Source of the DNA: Neolewinella litorea
Lineage (GTDB): Bacteria > Bacteroidota > Bacteroidia > Chitinophagales > Saprospiraceae
Reading direction: 5' to 3'
Assembly (NCBI RefSeq): GCF_004803465.1
Contig: NZ_SRSF01000013.1
Coordinates: forward strand, 1 to 64,000
Length of the DNA: 64,000 nucleotides
The notes beneath the pieces are model-generated. The model was not told the origin of the DNA and did no database searches. It saw nothing but the letters and a program-made list of their open reading frames with translations. A program made the position numbers and the translations under genes. Shown here piece after piece: positions 282-11,082 of this stretch (its first letter is position 1; each line of letters opens with the position of its first letter).

Positions 282-708
282 GATAGATCGGAATACGCAG
301 TACGCCGGTAAACTAGTAGGCCAAACCGCCTACCCGCAAAGAGCCCAGCGGTACCGCGAACTCGTGATTGCCGGCAGCAAGATCGATCACTTCGACCCAA
401 AGAGTAAGATTGTGCGGGAAGTCAAGAAATCGAGCCGCAAACGGGATGCACACCGAGCGCAGGTGCTGTACTACCTCTACCTGCTCCGCCGGGAAGGCAT
501 TGAAGCCACCGGTCTGCTCGAATACCCCAGCGAACGGTATACTGAGGCCGTGGAATGGACGGCCGAGAGTGCTGCCACAATCGTCGCGTGGGAAGCTAAG
601 ATCACCGCGATCATTGGGTTGGACACCTGCCCGGAGGTCATTCGGGCCCGCTACTGCCGGCAGTGCAGCTACTATGAATTTTGTTACGTTGCCAACGATA
701 ACGGATGA
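282..708 (+). pseudogene. cas4: cas4 remnant (type I-B CRISPR adaptation exonuclease), 5' end removed by IS21
   Basis: Frame 1 is open from the IS junction and reads as Cas4 from roughly codon 30 onward: a GKLVG..YPQRAQRYREL segment, the nuclease Asp in KIDHFD, the E-x-K motif in REVKKS, and the C-terminal iron-sulfur cysteines (CPEV..., then CRQCSYYEFC). What is missing is the start and the N-terminal segment that in this family carries the first cluster cysteine (YYxxCxRKLW region). An internal GTG at 364 could restart translation, but the product would lack that cysteine. The stop overlaps the cas1 start (ATGA at 705-708). It is probably non-functional or altered; Cas4 normally helps choose PAM-compatible prespacers. 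Confidence 0.85.
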
Positions 709-1715
709 AACGCAGCTACTATATCTTTAACCCCGGCCGCCTGAGCCGACGCGATGACACCCTAAAACTGACGCCAATTGATTCTGCCGGTGACGCCAGT
801 GGCGCGGCACGCTACCTACCAGTGGAAACGGTCGAATCCCTATACGTCTTTGGTAGCTTGGACGCAAACAGTGCGGCCATGAATTTCCTGGGTAAGAAGC
901 ACGTCCCAGTCCACTTTTTCGACTACTACGAGCACTACACCGGTTCGTTTCAGCCCAAAGATTATTTACTGGCGGGCAAAATGCAGATTGAGCAAACGCG
1001 GGCCTACCTGACCAAGAAAAAGCGGCTGCACCTGGCGCGGATGTTCGTCGCCGCCTCGGCCCACAACTTGCTGCGTAACCTGCGTTACTACGCCAACCGG
1101 GGCCACGACACGCGGGCACAGATCGATCTGATCGAGGAGTACCGCACCGGTATCGAAGGGGTGACCGCGGTGGATGAGCTCATGGGTGTGGAGGGCAACT
1201 GCCGCCAGACCTACTATGACTCCTGGGATGCCTTCCTGCGCGATGGTTGGCGGATGGGCGGCCGTAGCCGCCGCCCGCCGGGTAATGAGGTCAATGCCCT
1301 AGTTAGTTTCGGTAACTCTCTGTGCTACGCCGCTTGCCTGGACCAACTCTACCACACCCAGCTGAACCCCACCATCAGTTTTCTACACGAACCCGGCTTT
1401 CGCCGGTATTCTCTGGCCCTGGACCTCGCTGAAATTTTCAAACCCGTTTTGGTAGACCGGCTGATCTTCCGGATGCTCAATAAGCTCGAACTGCAAACCA
1501 AGCACTTCGAGTACGTCGGCGGCGGATGCTTTCTGAAGGAAACCGGACGTAAGCTATATGTCCGCGCCTGGGACGAACGCCTGGGCCAGACCATCAAGGT
1601 TAAGGGCCTAAGCAAACCGGTAAGCTACAAACGGCTGATCCGGTTGGAAGCCTACAAAATCCAGAAATTCATTCTTGGCATTGACGCCGCCTACAAAGCT
1701 TACAAAGCCTACTGA
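705..1715 (+). CDS. cas1: CRISPR-associated endonuclease Cas1, subtype I-B type
   Basis: This is the integrase of the Cas1-Cas2 complex, which inserts new spacers at the leader end of the array. The 336-residue length fits the I-B family. The expected metal-binding residues are present: Glu195 in GNEVNALVSFGNSLCY, His228 in SFLHEPG and Asp240 in SLALDLAEIFKP. The ATG overlaps the cas4 stop by four bases and cas2 follows three bases after the stop, so the three were one transcription unit. The IS21 insertion in cas4 may have changed how this operon is expressed. No damage to the gene itself is visible. Confidence 0.97.
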   Translation: MKRSYYIFNPGRLSRRDDTLKLTPIDSAGDASGAARYLPVETVESLYVFGSLDANSAAMNFLGKKHVPVHFFDYYEHYTGSFQPKDYLLAGKMQIEQTRAYLTKKKRLHLARMFVAASAHNLLRNLRYYANRGHDTRAQIDLIEEYRTGIEGVTAVDELMGVEGNCRQTYYDSWDAFLRDGWRMGGRSRRPPGNEVNALVSFGNSLCYAACLDQLYHTQLNPTISFLHEPGFRRYSLALDLAEIFKPVLVDRLIFRMLNKLELQTKHFEYVGGGCFLKETGRKLYVRAWDERLGQTIKVKGLSKPVSYKRLIRLEAYKIQKFILGIDAAYKAYKAY

Positions 1716-1718
1716 GTC

Positions 1719-1979
1719 ATGTACGTAATCGCCGTTTACGACGTCCGCGCCGAGCGCACGGGCAAACTCCTCAAGCTCTGCCGCCGTTACTTGACCTGGA
1801 TACAAAACAGCGTCTTTGAAGGGGAAATTAGCCCGGTGCGTCTGAAGGAACTCAAAATTGAAGCTAAAAAACTAATGGTTGACGAGGACAGCCTCATTAT
1901 CTTCAGCAGCCGCGAGCCCCGCTGGCTGCAAAAAGACGTCATCGGCCACGAACGCAATTCAACGGATAACTTCTTCTGA
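1719..1979 (+). CDS. cas2: CRISPR-associated protein Cas2
   Basis: This 86-residue protein begins MYVIAVYDV, the first beta strand and conserved Asp of the Cas2 ferredoxin-like fold, and has the expected WIQNSVFEGE helix and a C-terminal SLIIFSS strand. Cas2 forms the structural core of the Cas1-Cas2 spacer-integration complex. It lies three bases after cas1 and about 210 bases before the first CRISPR repeat, the normal arrangement of an I-B adaptation module. There is no sign of frameshift or truncation. Confidence 0.96.
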   Translation: MYVIAVYDVRAERTGKLLKLCRRYLTWIQNSVFEGEISPVRLKELKIEAKKLMVDEDSLIIFSSREPRWLQKDVIGHERNSTDNFF

Positions 1980-2190
1980 TCCGTCGGTCGGACCAGTAGG
2001 TGGGTTCCGCAGCACCCCGGCCCCGCTTGAAAGCTGCAAAGTTCTTTGACAATCAGGGTTTTATGCCGTCCGTCGCTCCCCGGCATTTTTCGTATTTTTG
2101 AGCGTCGGTACGCTTACTCAGGCTGTCTTCGCGGTGAATCTCAAGCTAAGTGCTTGATTTACAATTAAGATAGCCCGGACAAGGGGATGG
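1980..2190 (+). promoter_or_regulatory. CRISPR leader with pre-crRNA promoter element
   Basis: This 211-base AT-richer stretch lies between cas2 and repeat 1. A perfect Bacteroidota -7 element, TAttTTTG, lies at 2093-2100, which would start transcription about 85 bases before the first repeat. That this is the leader side is supported by adjacency to cas2, by identical repeats at this end and degenerate repeats at the other, and by the ATTGAAA end of each repeat (the crRNA 5' handle in I-B) pointing away from it. No clear -33 TTG was found at the usual spacing. Confidence 0.7.
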
Positions 2191-5100
2191 CTCGTAATTG
2201 GATCAAGTTGGGATTGAAATGCTTGTACGCCAGCTGGCGACGTGAGGCCAATTGCACTCGTAATTGGATCAAGTTGGGATTGAAATGCAAATCTCCCATT
2301 TGCTATGATCGCCCAACCTTTCGTCTCGTAATTGGATCAAGTTGGGATTGAAATATCGGTACCGCCAGCGTCGAGATATCGCGCAGGGCTCGTAATTGGA
2401 TCAAGTTGGGATTGAAATCGTTCCACCACTCTTGGAACGGGTCGTAACTGCCGCTCGTAATTGGATCAAGTTGGGATTGAAATCGAATACGACCAAGCGT
2501 GTGCCGCGATTGACGCGCTGCTCGTAATTGGATCAAGTTGGGATTGAAATATGTAGAATTTGCCGATCTCCGGCTGGGGGGTTGTTCTCGTAATTGGATC
2601 AAGTTGGGATTGAAATTGGTATCGGTGCTGGTGCCGGACTTGTCGAGCACCCTCGTAATTGGATCAAGTTGGGATTGAAATTCCAAAGCGGGTGCGGCCT
2701 ATGTTCTGCCGGCGCGTCTCGTAATTGGATCAAGTTGGGATTGAAATTATGGGGCTGTATGGCTCGGTACTTCTTACCGTCGTCTCGTAATTGGATCAAG
2801 TTGGGATTGAAATGCGTGGAACACAGCCAACGTGACCACCTTCTCTTTCCTCGTAATTGGATCAAGTTGGGATTGAAATACAAGCGCAGCGCGGCACGCC
2901 ACCGCGGGCTGCTCGACTCGTAATTGGATCAAGTTGGGATTGAAATCCGGCCGTACAGTGATCGGTAGCCAGCCGCAGATCCCTCGTAATTGGATCAAGT
3001 TGGGATTGAAATTTGTATATGCCACCGTCGGCCCAATATCCTTGGGATCTCGTAATTGGATCAAGTTGGGATTGAAATTCGGGATCTATATCTCGCTCCA
3101 TCCTGAAATTCTTTCTCGTAATTGGATCAAGTTGGGATTGAAATTCTTCCGCGAAGCCCGACAGCCTCCGGTGTCCGGCGCTCGTAATTGGATCAAGTTG
3201 GGATTGAAATCTTCCTGTACCCCGTCGCAGGGGGCCACCACCCGGTCTCGTAATTGGATCAAGTTGGGATTGAAATAAGACAAAGGTTCGCCACTCGCTG
3301 CGCTTGGTTTCCTCGTAATTGGATCAAGTTGGGATTGAAATTCAACTGCTGGCGAACGTTGGATTTCACCATGTCGACTCGTAATTGGATCAAGTTGGGA
3401 TTGAAATATGATCGTTAGCCCCGCGCCGCTGTGCCGCCCAAGGCTCGTAATTGGATCAAGTTGGGATTGAAATCGCTGATAACCGTAGGTAGGGCAATGC
3501 ACGTCGACCGCTCGTAATTGGATCAAGTTGGGATTGAAATTGAAAGAAATATTCCGCCACAACCGTAACGGGTTCGGCTCGTAATTGGATCAAGTTGGGA
3601 TTGAAATAGTGTTCTGGCTGCTCCCTGACGCTGAACAACCGGCTCGTAATTGGATCAAGTTGGGATTGAAATAGTAAAATCAGGTGGACACAAGGCCCGT
3701 TCGGGTTGTCTCGTAATTGGATCAAGTTGGGATTGAAATACCTCCAGCGCGTGGTGCTCCCTCGTCCCTCCTTGGCTCGTAATTGGATCAAGTTGGGATT
3801 GAAATAACGTCCTATGCGGTCCGATTTCCTCGACTTCCTTCTCGTAATTGGATCAAGTTGGGATTGAAATCCGTAGGTAAGACCGGCCAGCGTTTTGGCG
3901 TCGCCGCTCGTAATTGGATCAAGTTGGGATTGAAATCGGATGCCAAAAAGATCACCCGCGCGGTCCGGGTTGCTCGTAATTGGATCAAGTTGGGATTGAA
4001 ATCCCTGTAACCGCGCAGTCTGACAACCCCGACGCGCACTCGTAATTGGATCAAGTTGGGATTGAAATCCGATGAAGGGGATGGTGATAATCTTATCCAT
4101 GAAACTCGTAATTGGATCAAGTTGGGATTGAAATCTTACTCCGAATTTGATTCGCCCGATCTCCCCGGCTCTCGTAATTGGATCAAGTTGGGATTGAAAT
4201 ATTTCTGCGCGGAAGATGCACCCGGAAAGGCCTTCGCTCGTAATTGGATCAAGTTGGGATTGAAATAACTATCGCCGTCCAATACATGGGGCAAAACCTC
4301 GGACTCGTAATTGGATCAAGTTGGGATTGAAATTGGGTGAACCTATTATAATCAACTCGGGCTATCGCTCTCGTAATTGGATCAAGTTGGGATTGAAATA
4401 CTTTGATGGCGGTACCGATTTTCAAGCCCACTATTCTCGTAATTGGATCAAGTTGGGATTGAAATAGAAGGAAGGACCCCGGCCGTTGACGCGGCCGGGG
4501 TTCTCGTAATTGGATCAAGTTGGGATTGAAATCCTTGTGCCGTGTCAGCAAGGCGGGACAAGTCCACTCGTAATTGGATCAAGTTGGGATTGAAATTTTA
4601 TTTTGAGGGGTAGAGCGAGTTGTTCAATAAGCCACTCGTAATTGGATCAAGTTGGGATTGAAATGCGAGACGATACTACTGTGTATGTTCTCAAACATGG
4701 CTCGTAATTGGATCAAGTTGGGATTGAAATCCGTATTCCACCCCGACACGTCCAGGAGGGTGAGCTCGTAATTGGATCAAGTTGGGATTGAAATCCGACG
4801 ACGGACTCAAGTCCCTCCTGTTTTGGATGGCTCGTAATTGGATCAAGTTGGGATTGAAATTGAGAGACGGGGTGGGTTAATGAACGTGCGGGGCGGTCTC
4901 GTAATTGGATCAAGTTGGGATTGAAATTTGGCACCAACGTGGGCCATTTGCAGGAGCGCGGAATCTCGTAATTGGATCAAGTTGGGATTGAAATCGCGGT
5001 GAGCGTTCCAGCGACGCTTTTTGCCGTCGCTCGTAATTGGATCAAGTTGGGATTGAAATCTTGCTCGAACTGGACACGCAAGGCGAGCTTGGCAACCTCG

Positions 5101-6846
5101 TAATTGGATCAAGTTGGGATTGAAATACACCAAGGTGGATTTCACCATCCGGTTCCGCAACCTCTCGTAATTGGATCAAGTTGGGATTGAAATAGGGAGA
5201 ACCCACGATTGTACCGTTTCCCTCCGCTCTCGTAATTGGATCAAGTTGGGATTGAAATCAATTTCCGCTCGTCGTACATCCGTGTTACGCTCCCCTCGTA
5301 ATTGGATCAAGTTGGGATTGAAATCCGTCACTGGCATAAATTCAGATCTGACGCTCCAACCTCGTAATTGGATCAAGTTGGGATTGAAATATGCCACGGT
5401 CGAAGTTGATGCGAACCGGGAAAGTCTCGTAATTGGATCAAGTTGGGATTGAAATAGAAGCGCATCACGTCGGTCAGCTTTTCGGAGTTGTCTCGTAATT
5501 GGATCAAGTTGGGATTGAAATAGGAACTTAAAAAACACTAGCCATGCCCCACTTCGCTCGTAATTGGATCAAGTTGGGATTGAAATTCCGCCAACGCGCC
5601 GCAGCGATTGCCACCGCCGCCTCTCGTAATTGGATCAAGTTGGGATTGAAATCGTAGTTACTCCGACGTTGGGGAGCGTTAGGAACTTCTCGTAATTGGA
5701 TCAAGTTAAGATTGAAATAAGGTGCTGTGGGCGGTGTTGTGCACCACCATATGTCTCGTAATTGGATCAAGTTGGGATTGAAATTGGGTAGGCTTGTTCT
5801 GCGATGATGGCTCCCGCGATCTCGTAATTGGATCAAGTTGGGATTGAAATAGGCCGACGTGCAACGGATGTACCCCGGCTCCACCCCTCGTAATTGGATC
5901 AAGTTGGGATTGAAATGAAAGACCATTACGGACGAATACCTGGGCACGCTGGCTCGTAATTGGATCAAGTTGGGATTGAAATCGGCTGAACCGGGCGGCA
6001 AAATGTAGGCGCGCGGCCTCGTAATTGGATCAAGTTGGGATTGAAATCCCTGTGACTGCCCAGTCCGATAACCCCGATGCGCAAACTCGTAATTGGATCA
6101 AGTTGGGATTGAAATGTGGGCTACTGCAAAGGGTCGCCGGATTCTACTGGCTCGTAATTGGATCAAGTTGGGATTGAAATTGGGGCAATCGTTTCGGGAA
6201 TGGGGTCCAGGCTGCCGCTCGTAATTGGATCAAGTTGGGATTGAAATATGGAACCGGTATCGTACGGGTCGAACGGGTGCCAGCCTCGTAATTGGATCAA
6301 GTTGGGATTGAAATTATAGTAGGTGTGCCAGCCGGAATTGTGAGCGTGCCTCGTAATTGGATCAAGTTGGGATTGAAATGACGGTGCCGCCCGCCCCCAA
6401 AAGCCGAAAAAACCCCTCGTAATTGGATCAAGTTGGGATTGAAATTGGGGTAATCGTTTCGGGGATGGGGTCCAGGCTGCCGGCTCGTAATTGGATCAAG
6501 TTGGGATTGAAATTACCTGAGTCCGACTGTTTTGGAACCACAAAACCCACTCGTAATTGGATCATGTTGGGGTTGAAATTTTCGGAAGAGGAGTACGACC
6601 GCAAACTGAAAAAACTCTCGTAATTGGATCAGGTTGGGATTGAAATTCTATCTACTGGAACACCCCGCAGCCCTGCGGGTAGCTCGTAATTGGATCAGGT
6701 TAAGATTGAAATACACGAAAGACAAAGATTATAAGGCGGTATTTCATGCTCGTAATTGGATCAGGTTGGGATTGAAATAGATAAAGCCGGGTGGTACCAC
6801 CGTGGGTAACCTCCTGCTCGTAATTGGATCAGGTTGGGATTGAAAC
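2191..6846 (+). CRISPR. Type I-B CRISPR array, 71 repeats and 70 spacers
   Basis: The 30-base repeat starts CTCGTAATTGGATC and ends GGGATTGAAAT; I counted 71 copies, the first at 2191-2220 and the last at 6817-6846. The spacers are 34-38 bases, mostly 36. Repeats are nearly all identical up to about 6500. Variants are repeat 54 (5689), repeat 67 (6550) and repeats 68-71 (6617, 6683, 6749, 6817), which carry CAGG instead of CAAG; the last also ends in C. Degeneration at the right end marks it as the old, leader-distal end. The ATTGAAA 3' end and the neighbouring cas4-cas1-cas2 indicate subtype I-B. All open frames crossing the array are artefacts of the repeat. Confidence 0.99.
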
Positions 6847-7005
6847 CGGCACCGAACAAGTCATACACCGACAATTGAGAAGGGGAGGAAACGTTGAACT
6901 CTACTTAATATAAGTACAAACATGTAGCTCAAAAGTAATTCAACCTAGTAGCCAGGTAATGTCCAACGTCTCCATGAATAAACCCCCACCAAACCCACAC
7001 CCCCT

Positions 7006-8391
7006 TCACTCACCCACCCCCACAGCAATCCCCTCCAATCCAGCCTCCAAAAAGTCTTGGTCCAGCCAGCGGCCGCGAATCATGACGCCGGCGGGGTGCT
7101 GCAGGTGGTCCATGTCCTCTAGGGGATTTCCGGATACCAGCATCAGGTCGGCCGAGGCGCCGGGCTCGACGGTGCCAAATTCACCGGCCCGGTCGAAGTA
7201 CTGTGCCGGGTGGACGGTACCCATCCGGAGGATATCGTAGGCGGACAGGCCGGCGGCCTGCAGGGCATCGATCTCGTGGTGGATGGAAAATCCGGGGACG
7301 TTGAAGACCTGGGGTGCATCGGAACCCAGCAACAGCAAACCCGTTTCGTTGAGCCGGCGGATGATCTCGCGGCGGGTCGCCATCATTTGTTCCCACTGTT
7401 CGCGGGTGTAGCCCGGGGCGGTGATGAGGTTGGTTTTGTTCTGCCGCCAGCTGAGCAGCGTACGGCCGGGCATGTACTTCATCTCGGGATCTCGCAGGTA
7501 CACCTCCGCCGGCTCGGGGGAGGCCCAGCGGGTGAAAAGGCTTTCGGTAGTGACTACCCACACCCGGTTCTCTTCCGTCAGCCGGATCAACTCCGGCAGC
7601 AGGTCCAGATCGATCAGGGGAGCAAAATTGTAGCCGAAGAAGCCGTTCTCTGCGGGATTGACCCCGGCGCTTTCCGGCACCAGTCCCTCCAGGTACCCGT
7701 CGACGTGATCGATGCTGGCGTATTGCAGCGACAGGGCGTGGCGGATGCCTACGTCGACCGGCACGTGTCCCGCAAAGTCGATCCCCACCGCATTGGCCGT
7801 AGCCACCAGTGTATCGAATACCTCCCGCTGAATTCCGGGGTGGATCTTCAGGAAGTCGTAGCCCGCTTCCTGCTGGGCGCGGACTTTGGTACGGGCCTCC
7901 TCCGGGGTCTGCACGGTATTGCCGTTCAGGGAGGGGCCGGAGGTGAAAATTCGCGGCCCCAGCACGCTTCCCTCGGCCACCGCGCGGCGCAGTTCGAGGT
8001 GGGCGGGGTGCCCCAGCATGCCGCGGACGGTGGTGATGCCATTGGCCAAGTAGAGGAACAGCGTCTCTTCAATTCGGTCGTCGCCCGCCTCGTCGGGGTG
8101 GGGGATGTGGGCGTGCATTTCGGCCAGTCCGGGCAGCAGGTACTGCCCCCTCCCGTCGATGACCTCCGCGAAGTCGGCGGTATCCACCTGGTCCATCGGC
8201 ACCACCCGGCTGATGCGGCCGTCGGCGACCACCACGGCGCGGTCGGGCAACACCCGGTCGTCCAGCATGGTGAGCACGTTGACGTCATAAATAACCAGCT
8301 CGTTGGAAGCATCGCTGGTTTCGGGCGGCGCGACGCGGGTGCAATGCGCCAGGAGAAGCGCAGAAAGCAGGTGGGCAAAGAGTACTTTCAT
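7006..8391 (-). CDS. Amidohydrolase-family lipoprotein (imidazolonepropionase/prolidase-like)
   Basis: This 461-residue metal-dependent hydrolase has an N-terminal lipoprotein signal with acceptor Cys17 (LLLAHC), so it is predicted to be membrane-anchored outside the cytoplasm. The amidohydrolase fold is shown by the HxH motif (MHAHIPHP, His93 and His95), a candidate carboxylated Lys182 (FLKIHPG), His209 (AGHVP), His229 (IDHVDG) and Asp358 (GSDAP), plus the family ending GASADLMLVSGNPLED. Such proteins cleave cyclic amides, dipeptides or related C-N bonds; the substrate cannot be read from sequence. It is transcribed away from the oxidoreductase gene at 8642 and stands alone on its strand. 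Confidence 0.85.
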   Translation of the reverse strand: MKVLFAHLLSALLLAHCTRVAPPETSDASNELVIYDVNVLTMLDDRVLPDRAVVVADGRISRVVPMDQVDTADFAEVIDGRGQYLLPGLAEMHAHIPHPDEAGDDRIEETLFLYLANGITTVRGMLGHPAHLELRRAVAEGSVLGPRIFTSGPSLNGNTVQTPEEARTKVRAQQEAGYDFLKIHPGIQREVFDTLVATANAVGIDFAGHVPVDVGIRHALSLQYASIDHVDGYLEGLVPESAGVNPAENGFFGYNFAPLIDLDLLPELIRLTEENRVWVVTTESLFTRWASPEPAEVYLRDPEMKYMPGRTLLSWRQNKTNLITAPGYTREQWEQMMATRREIIRRLNETGLLLLGSDAPQVFNVPGFSIHHEIDALQAAGLSAYDILRMGTVHPAQYFDRAGEFGTVEPGASADLMLVSGNPLEDMDHLQHPAGVMIRGRWLDQDFLEAGLEGIAVGVGE

Positions 8392-8641
8392 CGACGTTGG
8401 TTTACCTCTCCCGGAAAATAGGTATTTAATCCGGAGCGGTGTCGGCTGCTATACTGCTCTGCTTTGGTTTCATCGGCGGGCACCCTACCGGATTATAGTT
8501 GAAAAATTACCCACTTGCGAAGCCCGACCGCCGGCCGCGCATCAACTCCGGAGAAAAAGTATAGTTTAGGTACGCACAATGGCTCCCGAACAAGCCAGGC
8601 CGGAATCACTTCAACCAGCAACCAAGCACCAGACGATCAGC

Positions 8642-9793
8642 ATGTCCAAGAAAAAATCCTCCAACACCCGCCGCCAATTTCTCCGCCAGTCCGCCGCGGC
8701 AAGCGGACTGCTGTTCCTGCCCGGACTGATCGGCTGTAACCCCTCCGGCCCGGCTTCCGCCGGGGAGGACCCGGCACCCGCGCCCCGCCGCCCGCATCAG
8801 GACCGCAAACTGGGCATTGCCATTCTCGGACTGGGGGGCTACGCCAGCGGACAGATCGCCCCGGCCCTACAACTGACCGAGCACTGCGAACTGCGCGGAC
8901 TCATCACCGGCAGCCCCGAAAAGCTCCCCGAGTGGCAGCGGAAGTACAACATCAAGGAGGAGAACTCCTACACCTACGACACCATGGACGAGATTGCCGA
9001 CAACGACGAGATCGACGTCGTGTACGTGATCACCCCGACGGCCACCCACCGCGACTTCACCGTGCGGGCCGCCAATACCGGCAAGCACGTCTGGTGCGAA
9101 AAGCCCATGGCCATGACCCCCGAGGAGTGCCAGGAAATGATCGACGCCTGCAACCGCAACGGCGTAAAACTGGCCATCGGCTACCGCATGATGCACGAGC
9201 CCAATACCCGCAAGCTGATCGAACTCACGAAGGAAAAGGCCTACGGCCCCCTCACCGGTGCCCACGCCTACGCGGGCTACGCCGGCAGTCCGCCCCCGGC
9301 CGACTACTGGCGCGGACAGCGCGACATGGGCGGCGGGGCCCTCTACGACATGGGCGTGTACTCCGTGAACGGACTGGCCTACGGTACCCAACTGCAACCC
9401 GTAGCGGTGGTGAAGGCCGGACAACGCCGGCAGGATCGGCCCAACGGCGTGGACCTGACCACCACCTACACCCTGCGCTACCCGGACGGGATGACCGCCG
9501 AAGGCAAGACCAGCGTAGTGGAAGACTACAACGAACTGCACATCGAAGCGGAAAATGGCTGGTACGAGATGGACCCCATGCAGCCCTATACCGGCGTGAA
9601 GGGAAGCACTAGCGACGGTAAAGTGCTCGGGCCTCCAGTCCCCAATCAGCAGTCGATCCAGATGGACGACGACGCCCTCGCGATCCTGAACGGGACGGAA
9701 CTAATCGCCCCCGGCACCCTCGCGCAAAAGGACATTCGCGTGATCCGCGCCATCATCGAGAGCGCCGAAACGGGGAAGGAAGTGAAGATCTAG
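8642..9793 (+). CDS. Tat-exported Gfo/Idh/MocA-family oxidoreductase
   Basis: This is a 383-residue NAD(P)-dependent sugar oxidoreductase. The ATG at 8642 is preferred over the upstream in-frame ATG at 8579 because it places a twin-arginine signal at the N-terminus (TRRQFLRQ, Arg10-Arg11), followed by a hydrophobic stretch ending in a possible lipobox (LIGC, Cys32). The Rossmann motif ILGLGGYASG and the EKPMAMT motif, whose Lys is the family catalytic lysine, identify Gfo/Idh/MocA. Tat export with bound cofactor recalls periplasmic glucose-fructose oxidoreductase. It precedes mannonate dehydratase on the same strand by 146 bases, so a role in sugar or sugar-acid conversion is plausible; the substrate is unknown. 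Confidence 0.88.
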   Translation: MSKKKSSNTRRQFLRQSAAASGLLFLPGLIGCNPSGPASAGEDPAPAPRRPHQDRKLGIAILGLGGYASGQIAPALQLTEHCELRGLITGSPEKLPEWQRKYNIKEENSYTYDTMDEIADNDEIDVVYVITPTATHRDFTVRAANTGKHVWCEKPMAMTPEECQEMIDACNRNGVKLAIGYRMMHEPNTRKLIELTKEKAYGPLTGAHAYAGYAGSPPPADYWRGQRDMGGGALYDMGVYSVNGLAYGTQLQPVAVVKAGQRRQDRPNGVDLTTTYTLRYPDGMTAEGKTSVVEDYNELHIEAENGWYEMDPMQPYTGVKGSTSDGKVLGPPVPNQQSIQMDDDALAILNGTELIAPGTLAQKDIRVIRAIIESAETGKEVKI

Positions 9794-9939
9794 CCGGGTT
9801 GGGTCAGGGCCGTGATCGGGTGAGGCGGTAGCGAAAAGCAATCGATTGCCTTATTCGGGGTAGCGAAGCCCGAAAGCCCGCCGCTACGTCCGCCGGAAAC
9901 CCTACATTCGTAGATCGCAAACTGAAAACCCACCCTCCT

Positions 9940-11082
9940 ATGTATCCTACCTGGCGCTGGTACGGCCCGAAAGACCCCATCAGCATTGAAGAAGTATCGG
10001 CCCTGGACATCCGGGGCGTGGTCACCGCCCTGCACCACGTAGAGAACGGCGCCGTCTGGAGCCGCGAGGAGATCCGGCAGCGGAAGCGGGAACTCGGCAG
10101 CCTGCCCTGGTCGGTGGTGGAGAGCGTACCGGTACACGAGGGCATCAAGCAGAACGCGGACAATGCCCCCGACCTGATCGACAACTACTGCCGCACGCTG
10201 GAGAACCTCTCGGCCGAGGGCATCACCACCGTGTGCTACAACTTTATGCCGGTGCTGGACTGGACCCGCACCCGTCTGGCGGTGCCGGTGCCGGGGGGGA
10301 CGACGGTGGCATTGTACGGTCTGGACCTCATCGCCTTCGACATCTTCATGCTGGCCCGGCCCCACGCCGCGGACGATTATCCGGCGGAGCTCGTGGAGCT
10401 GGCCACCGACCACTACGAAAGCATGGAGCCGGAAGACCGGCAGGAAGTCATGGACAATATGCTCAAAGGGCTGCCCGGCTCGGAGGAAAGCTTCGATCTG
10501 GCCTCCTTCAAGGAATCCATCGAGCCCTACCTGCACATTCCCCGCTCCACCTTCAAGGAGAACCTGCAGCGCTTCCTCGAGGAAGTGGTGCCCGTGGCCA
10601 CGAAGGAGGGCATCAAGCTCACCATCCACCCCGACGATCCGCCGTGGTCGGTGGTGGGCCTCCCGCGCATTGTATCGACCATGGACGACCTGCAGGACGT
10701 CCTCGACATGGTCGACGAAAAAGCCAACGGAATCTGTCTGTGCACCGGCTCACTGGGCTCGCGGGAAGACAATGACCTGCCCGCGATGGCCAAAAAATTC
10801 CTGGACCGTATCCACTTCGTGCACCTGCGCAACGTAGCCCTAAAGCCGCACGCCAGTTTCGAAGAGAGCGGTCACCTGCAGGGCGACGTTGACATGGCGG
10901 CCGTGATGGGCGAACTCTTGCGCAGTAAAGCCGACGTACCCTACCGGCCGGATCACGGGTTCACGATCTTCGACGACCGCAAGCGCCGTACCAATCCTGG
11001 CTACAGCCTGTATGGCCGTATGCGCGGACTGGCGGAACTAGAGGGCCTGCGGTACGGGTTGCTGGCTAGTCGACGAGGGTAA
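9940..11082 (+). CDS. uxuA: Mannonate dehydratase
   Basis: This 380-residue enzyme is predicted to dehydrate D-mannonate to 2-keto-3-deoxy-D-gluconate in glucuronate catabolism. Diagnostic UxuA segments are the start YPTWRWYGP, VVTALHHV, the metal-site regions LTIHPDDPPWSVVGLPRI and GICLCTGSLGS, HFVHLRN, and the C-terminal YRPDHG followed by GYSLYGRM. The length matches the family (about 390). A variant -7 element, TAcaTTCG, sits at 9903-9910, 29 bases upstream. The last 17 bases overlap the convergent secreted-protein gene. The usual partners uxaC and uxuB are not in the window. Confidence 0.95.
   Translation: MYPTWRWYGPKDPISIEEVSALDIRGVVTALHHVENGAVWSREEIRQRKRELGSLPWSVVESVPVHEGIKQNADNAPDLIDNYCRTLENLSAEGITTVCYNFMPVLDWTRTRLAVPVPGGTTVALYGLDLIAFDIFMLARPHAADDYPAELVELATDHYESMEPEDRQEVMDNMLKGLPGSEESFDLASFKESIEPYLHIPRSTFKENLQRFLEEVVPVATKEGIKLTIHPDDPPWSVVGLPRIVSTMDDLQDVLDMVDEKANGICLCTGSLGSREDNDLPAMAKKFLDRIHFVHLRNVALKPHASFEESGHLQGDVDMAAVMGELLRSKADVPYRPDHGFTIFDDRKRRTNPGYSLYGRMRGLAELEGLRYGLLASRRG

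Follow-up and report, generated by a model that had tools for sequence, protein, structure and literature searches.

The window analyzed here, the first 64,000 nucleotides of contig C5 in the 4.4 Mb, 39-contig genome of Neolewinella litorea, opens on the right end of an IS21-type insertion element and leads into the adaptation genes and repeat array of a CRISPR system, all on the forward strand. The element end (1-299) comprises the end of an IstB-like open reading frame (ORF; Pfam IstB_IS21, 1.2e-17) and a terminal repeat ending in ...GGAATACGCA. It is followed by the 3′ part of cas4 (300-708, with the listed ORF beginning at 364), which covers positions 53-159 of the 160 in the Pfam Cas_Cas4 profile and scores 56.3 bits against TIGR00372, under the cut-off of 65. 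Type I-B cas1 (705-1715; TIGR03641 Cas1b, 2.3e-121, over the cut-off; PADLOC Cas1b) and cas2 (1719-1979; Pfam CRISPR_Cas2, 5.8e-19; PADLOC Cas2b, 6.2e-39) come next and adjoin the array.

The array (2191-6846) consists of 71 repeats of 30 bp with the consensus CTCGTAATTGGATCAAGTTGGGATTGAAAT and 70 spacers of 34-38 nt. Of the 71 repeats, 65 are identical; repeat 54 differs, as do the five that close the array at its right end (67-71). Because cas1-cas2 stand to the left of the array, the interval between cas2 and the first repeat (1980-2190, forward strand) is the probable leader, a placement to which the variant repeats at the end away from cas2 also point. The newest spacers would then lie on the cas1-cas2 side; with that side taken as the leader side, spacer 59 is probably the older and spacer 28 the newer of the pair discussed below. 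A search for a 24-base core of the repeat, with up to three mismatches allowed, detected it in 1 of 21 genus genomes, that of the host, and the repeat is therefore patchy within the genus. This CRISPR system may have been acquired recently; alternatively, the repeats of congeners may be different ones. By eye, spacer 35 (4466-4502) carries a strong inverted repeat that is rich in GC and has TT after it, resembling a transcription terminator, and may stem from an intergenic region of an invader.

Type I-B genes and the insertion in cas4

The start of contig C12 holds the interference genes, in the form of cas6, a WYL regulator, cas8b, cas7, cas5, and cas3. PADLOC recognizes the Cas8b large subunit (1.3e-54, residues 2-644), which has no match in Pfam or NCBIfam profile searches, as well as Cas5b (2e-25), Cas7b (1.4e-37), Cas3b (2.3e-206), and Cas6b (8.7e-57). 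Among NCBIfam models, Cas6 and cas3_core exceed their cut-offs; Cas5h (88 versus 97 bits) and Csh2 (64.9 versus 171.55 bits) fall below theirs. Taken with these genes, the array and cas1-cas2 on C5 identify the system as type I-B. It resembles other type I-B systems in its full gene set, with an intact-looking cas3 and Cascade complement, and in a repeat that terminates in ATTGAAAT; it differs in that cas4 appears to be split by an insertion element. While cas4 is usual in type I-B, subtype naming does not require it. No intact cas4 was found, its halves lying on contigs C12 and C5, with the 5′ part on C12 matching positions 2-32 of the Cas4 profile.

Three right ends of the element (on C5, C3, and C7) have GGAATACGCA in common, and three left ends (on C12, C1, and C4) have TGGATATTCC in common. 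The six bases GTACGC border both ends of the cas4 insertion and were recognized by eye as a 6-bp target duplication. GACGAG flanks both sides of a second insertion, whose left end lies on C4 and right end on C7, and the remaining ends on C1 and C3 have no common flank. Given element ends and GTACGC flanks between the cas4 halves, cas4 is very probably interrupted by the IS21-type element, which would also account for the contig break. The element separates the interference genes on C12 from cas1-cas2 and the array on C5.

Two pairs of related spacers

Spacer 28 (4003-4038, 36 nt) and spacer 59 (6048-6085, 38 nt) share their first base and align from it without gaps at 30 of 36 positions, the latter extending two bases further at its 3′ end. 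The mismatches, at positions 7, 10, 13, 19, 22, and 31, comprise five transitions and one transversion (G/C at position 13). In forward frame +1, all six are silent, and both spacers encode PVTAQSDNPDA over the 36 nt; on direct reading, the two additional bases in spacer 59 finish a codon for Q. Realignment and translation thereby reproduced what the initial annotation had reported of the spacer coordinates, the alignment and mismatch positions, and the synonymy of the two spacers. Its statement that they were acquired about 30 events apart requires correction, as the figure counts the spacers retained between 28 and 59, not acquisition events.

There is no doubt that spacers 28 and 59 are related. 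When 70 random 36-mers were drawn from window positions 7001-64000 in each of 2,000 sets, the best same-offset identity was 24 of 34, compared with 28 of 34 for this pair and 32 of 34 for a second pair, spacers 61 and 65. The chance that all six mismatches of 28/59 fall in one codon phase is P = 0.0014. Among 40,000 simulated copies of spacer 28, each with six random substitutions of which half were transitions, 117 retained an identical, stop-free peptide in any of the six frames. Since the array holds two similar pairs, one of which is silent, a fair correction is roughly twofold, to about 0.6%.

The initial annotation took the strand and reading frame of the target as given by this pattern. 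The forward assignment is indeed favored, and it is less certain than was claimed, because a reverse-strand frame over the same codons differs at only one amino acid (Cys/Trp). Codon usage, with 14 long ORFs of the window taken as genes by length for reference, scores the forward frame at 0.2 and −0.7 for the two spacers and the rival reverse frame at −8.5 and −9.6. Another reverse frame (reverse 2) scores −0.9 for spacer 59, by codon usage as good as the forward frame, and −3.3 for spacer 28; in it the two spacers differ at six residues. Because the codon usage of an invader may differ from that of its host, these scores are support rather than proof, and the forward strand and frame are favored on the basis of the one transversion and codon usage together.

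The second pair and the common 5′ ends of both pairs were absent from the initial annotation. Spacers 61 (6181-6217, 37 nt) and 65 (6446-6483, 38 nt), both on the forward strand, begin at the same base and are identical at 35 of 37 positions, with mismatches at positions 6 and 19. Translation in all frames yielded no identical peptide, so this pair gives no support for a coding source. The frame that codon usage favors for it is reverse 0 (3.0 and 4.3), with two residue differences between the spacers. Spacers 3 and 34 (2355-2388 and 4400-4435, on opposite strands) have a 13-mer in common, as do spacers 18 and 45 (3342-3377 and 5127-5163). At least two such 13-mer pairs occurred in 19 of 2,000 random sets, and the array has three including 61/65; the targets of its spacers may therefore overlap further.

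Both variant pairs align at offset 0 and have unequal lengths (36/38 and 37/38 nt). With starts free to vary by up to 20 bases in either direction, two exact coincidences of start would be expected with a probability near 0.0006. A start fixed by a protospacer-adjacent motif (PAM), combined with an imprecise distal cut, would produce the common starts and differing ends of both pairs. Spacers of atypical length in a type I-F system were reported to map mostly to canonical PAMs (PMC5059440). Across the 31 repeats between spacers 28 and 59 (repeats 29-59, 930 nt) there are two substitutions, both in repeat 54, and the neighboring spacers 27 and 29 versus 58 and 60 are absent from the list of similar pairs. 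The unequal lengths, unrelated neighbors, and near-clean intervening repeats indirectly favor independent acquisition over a copy made within the array.

Searches for the source of the spacers

The check proposed by the initial annotation, a search with the encoded peptide, returned no credible target in the viral, phage, and genome collections searched. In viral contigs, the full degenerate PVTAQSDNPDA pattern had no matches, and neither did the VTAQSDNP and QSDNPDAQ patterns. The AQSDNPDA pattern, with Thr admitted for Ser, matched one viral contig, L023, in which a short ORF makes up the frame; no spacer match above 64% was found in the 9.7 kb examined, and the hit was attributed to chance. 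Among genome contigs, the peptide pattern retrieved one locus (L024) reading TAQTDNPDA, by eye an SLH-domain-like protein of a clostridial metagenome-assembled genome, to which spacer 28 is 67% identical; this too was judged a chance match. The peptide occurs in the host genome only in spacers 28 and 59. The QSDNPDA pattern (Ser/Thr) is present in 6 of 398 family genomes including the host, and the matches in the other five lie by eye in unrelated proteins or short frames.

Nucleotide searches gave a similar picture. The whole array compared with phages and plasmids retrieved 3 and 9 records, respectively, only at E values of 1 to 5, and spacers 59, 28, and 65 searched singly against phages retrieved 8, 1, and 3 records at E 0.5 or worse. 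Among the best for spacer 59 was a tail gene of Pectobacterium phage MA11, which by its annotation is out of the proposed frame. All spacers joined and searched against the 398 family genomes found nine besides the host at E ≤ 0.01 and no credible target, the first loci of all nine having been compared with the spacers and seven examined for ORFs; a search of 396 order genomes at E ≤ 0.002 retrieved the host alone. Sensitivity in these genome searches is limited, as at most two candidates per genome were scored among the matches listed.

Spacers 28 and 59 as a pair, searched against 388 family genomes, retrieved six besides the host (E 0.002-0.05 per genome), none with a match spanning the full spacer. 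Three of the six (L084, L086, and L088) read TAQS in the proposed frame. L088, from a congener, has VTAQSD in what by eye appears to be a secreted metalloprotease; L086 has two long open frames; and at L084, next to a stretch read as N, one of three open frames gives ITAQSYNPDP. None of the three resembles a phage gene, L088 being the one read at length. With TAQS occurring in ordinary cellular DNA (L086 and L088), the motif is not by itself viral. Spacers 61 and 65 as a pair retrieved 18 of the 388 family genomes besides the host (E 0.0006-0.05), of which three were examined and none was convincing; in viral contigs, one mixed DNA pattern and two peptide patterns for these spacers returned 0, 0, and 0 matches. 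As the collections searched yielded no credible protospacer, the invader, its gene, and the PAM are unproven.

A separate observation concerns spacer 69 (6713-6748), which aligns over 36 positions at 89% identity, with two compensating gaps, to a 42-kb phage contig (G004:C55) binned with a genome of the same family as the host. The match falls in a portal protein gene (L026 1503-1537; L035 8059-8093), and two related phage contigs match the spacer less well. That portal gene is a candidate target of spacer 69, an unproven lead based on sequence similarity.

Origin of the paired spacers

The initial annotation held that the array had sampled the same conserved gene from two diverged relatives of one invader. 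The silent pattern, the codon usage, and the near-clean repeats between the spacers are best read as a sign that both come from homologous coding DNA subject to purifying selection; that the host met two diverged relatives of one invader goes a step further and is suggested by the same data. We consider it probable that one coding stretch from two such relatives was captured separately at the same PAM-fixed start. This explanation would involve an invader family with approximately 83% nucleotide identity over the 28/59 stretch and a 5′ PAM that would fix the spacer start, with spacer 59 presumably captured earlier and spacer 28 later.

A single invader carrying two paralogues, or two intragenic repeats, that differ silently at the PVTAQSDNPDAQ stretch would give an equal silent pattern and an equal local PAM context, such that the two cases look alike. 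However, pair 61/65 would require the same arrangement once more, and two such units within a single phage genome would be rarer than homologous genes shared among related phages, leaving this source unlikely. The second capture could also have been a priming event in which spacer 59 weakly bound the newer relative despite six mismatches and drove reacquisition of the same site. The shared site and strand, the probably greater age of spacer 59, and the intact-looking cas3 and Cascade set speak for such a refresh, which is also compatible with capture from diverged relatives, as that explanation names no trigger of the second capture. It is nonetheless very unlikely as stated, because a target with six mismatches may stay unbound and the protospacers gained by priming are generally different ones in the vicinity of the primed site.

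Spacers can be duplicated when repeats recombine, and one spacer might have been copied within the array and then drifted. Such drift would have placed six changes in a 36-nt spacer against two in the 930 nt of repeats in between, without duplicating the flanking spacers and with a difference in length, and in an untranslated array it would not be expected to be silent (117 of 40,000 simulated copies); this origin is close to refuted. Hardly more credible is the idea that the spacers are related and their silent pattern arose by chance, the source being noncoding or read in another frame. The differences number only six, all but one residue is unchanged in the reverse frame as well, and pair 61/65 is silent in no frame; against this stand a simulated frequency of about 0.3% per pair, with two pairs available, and the preference of codon usage for the forward frame over its reverse.

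Cas4 helps to choose PAMs in other systems. If it does so here, present-day spacer acquisition may be impaired by the interruption of cas4, and pairs 28/59 and 61/65 may date from an earlier state in which capture was PAM-anchored. The 2,415 spacer pairs of the array include two same-site pairs, which corresponds to an effective pool of approximately 1,200 protospacers (334 to 9,971), a size to be expected if the source were a single phage lineage, a few of them, or capture hotspots. It is conceivable, and in our estimation quite unlikely, that the array was drawn from an unusually small set of sites that were revisited as the invader diverged, with older mismatched spacers steering recapture.

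Related observations have been made in other systems. A study of Octopus Spring Synechococcus describes silent or conservative variants of a lysozyme/lysin gene in virome reads matched to spacers (Heidelberg 2009, PMC2612747), with some reads 70% identical to a spacer and 75-100% identical in peptide. As with 28/59, one phage coding stretch is seen in silent or conservative versions. The difference is that virome reads were compared there with one spacer, whereas here both versions are spacers of one array, known from spacers alone. That study also raises, as one possibility, that the target space is so large that generating the same spacer twice is unlikely (PMC2612747). Near-identical repeated spacers have also been reported from Bifidobacterium lactis genomes (PMC12915315), whose systems are of types I-E and I-G as opposed to I-B; in the part of that report available, spacers are classed by seed mismatches and a silent codon pattern is unmentioned. 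Within a partial coverage of the literature, we recognized no report of one array holding two spacers that differ by silent codon changes. The 28/59 pair is a neat case of a known phenomenon, not a new kind of system.

An array alone, without a sequenced phage, can show the coding frame, the selection acting on a target, and the PAM-anchored end of capture. Should the invaders be found, the two pairs would place in order the repeated encounters of this host with one phage lineage, and would provide a test of the effect, favorable or adverse, that an old, mismatched spacer has on renewed capture at its own site.
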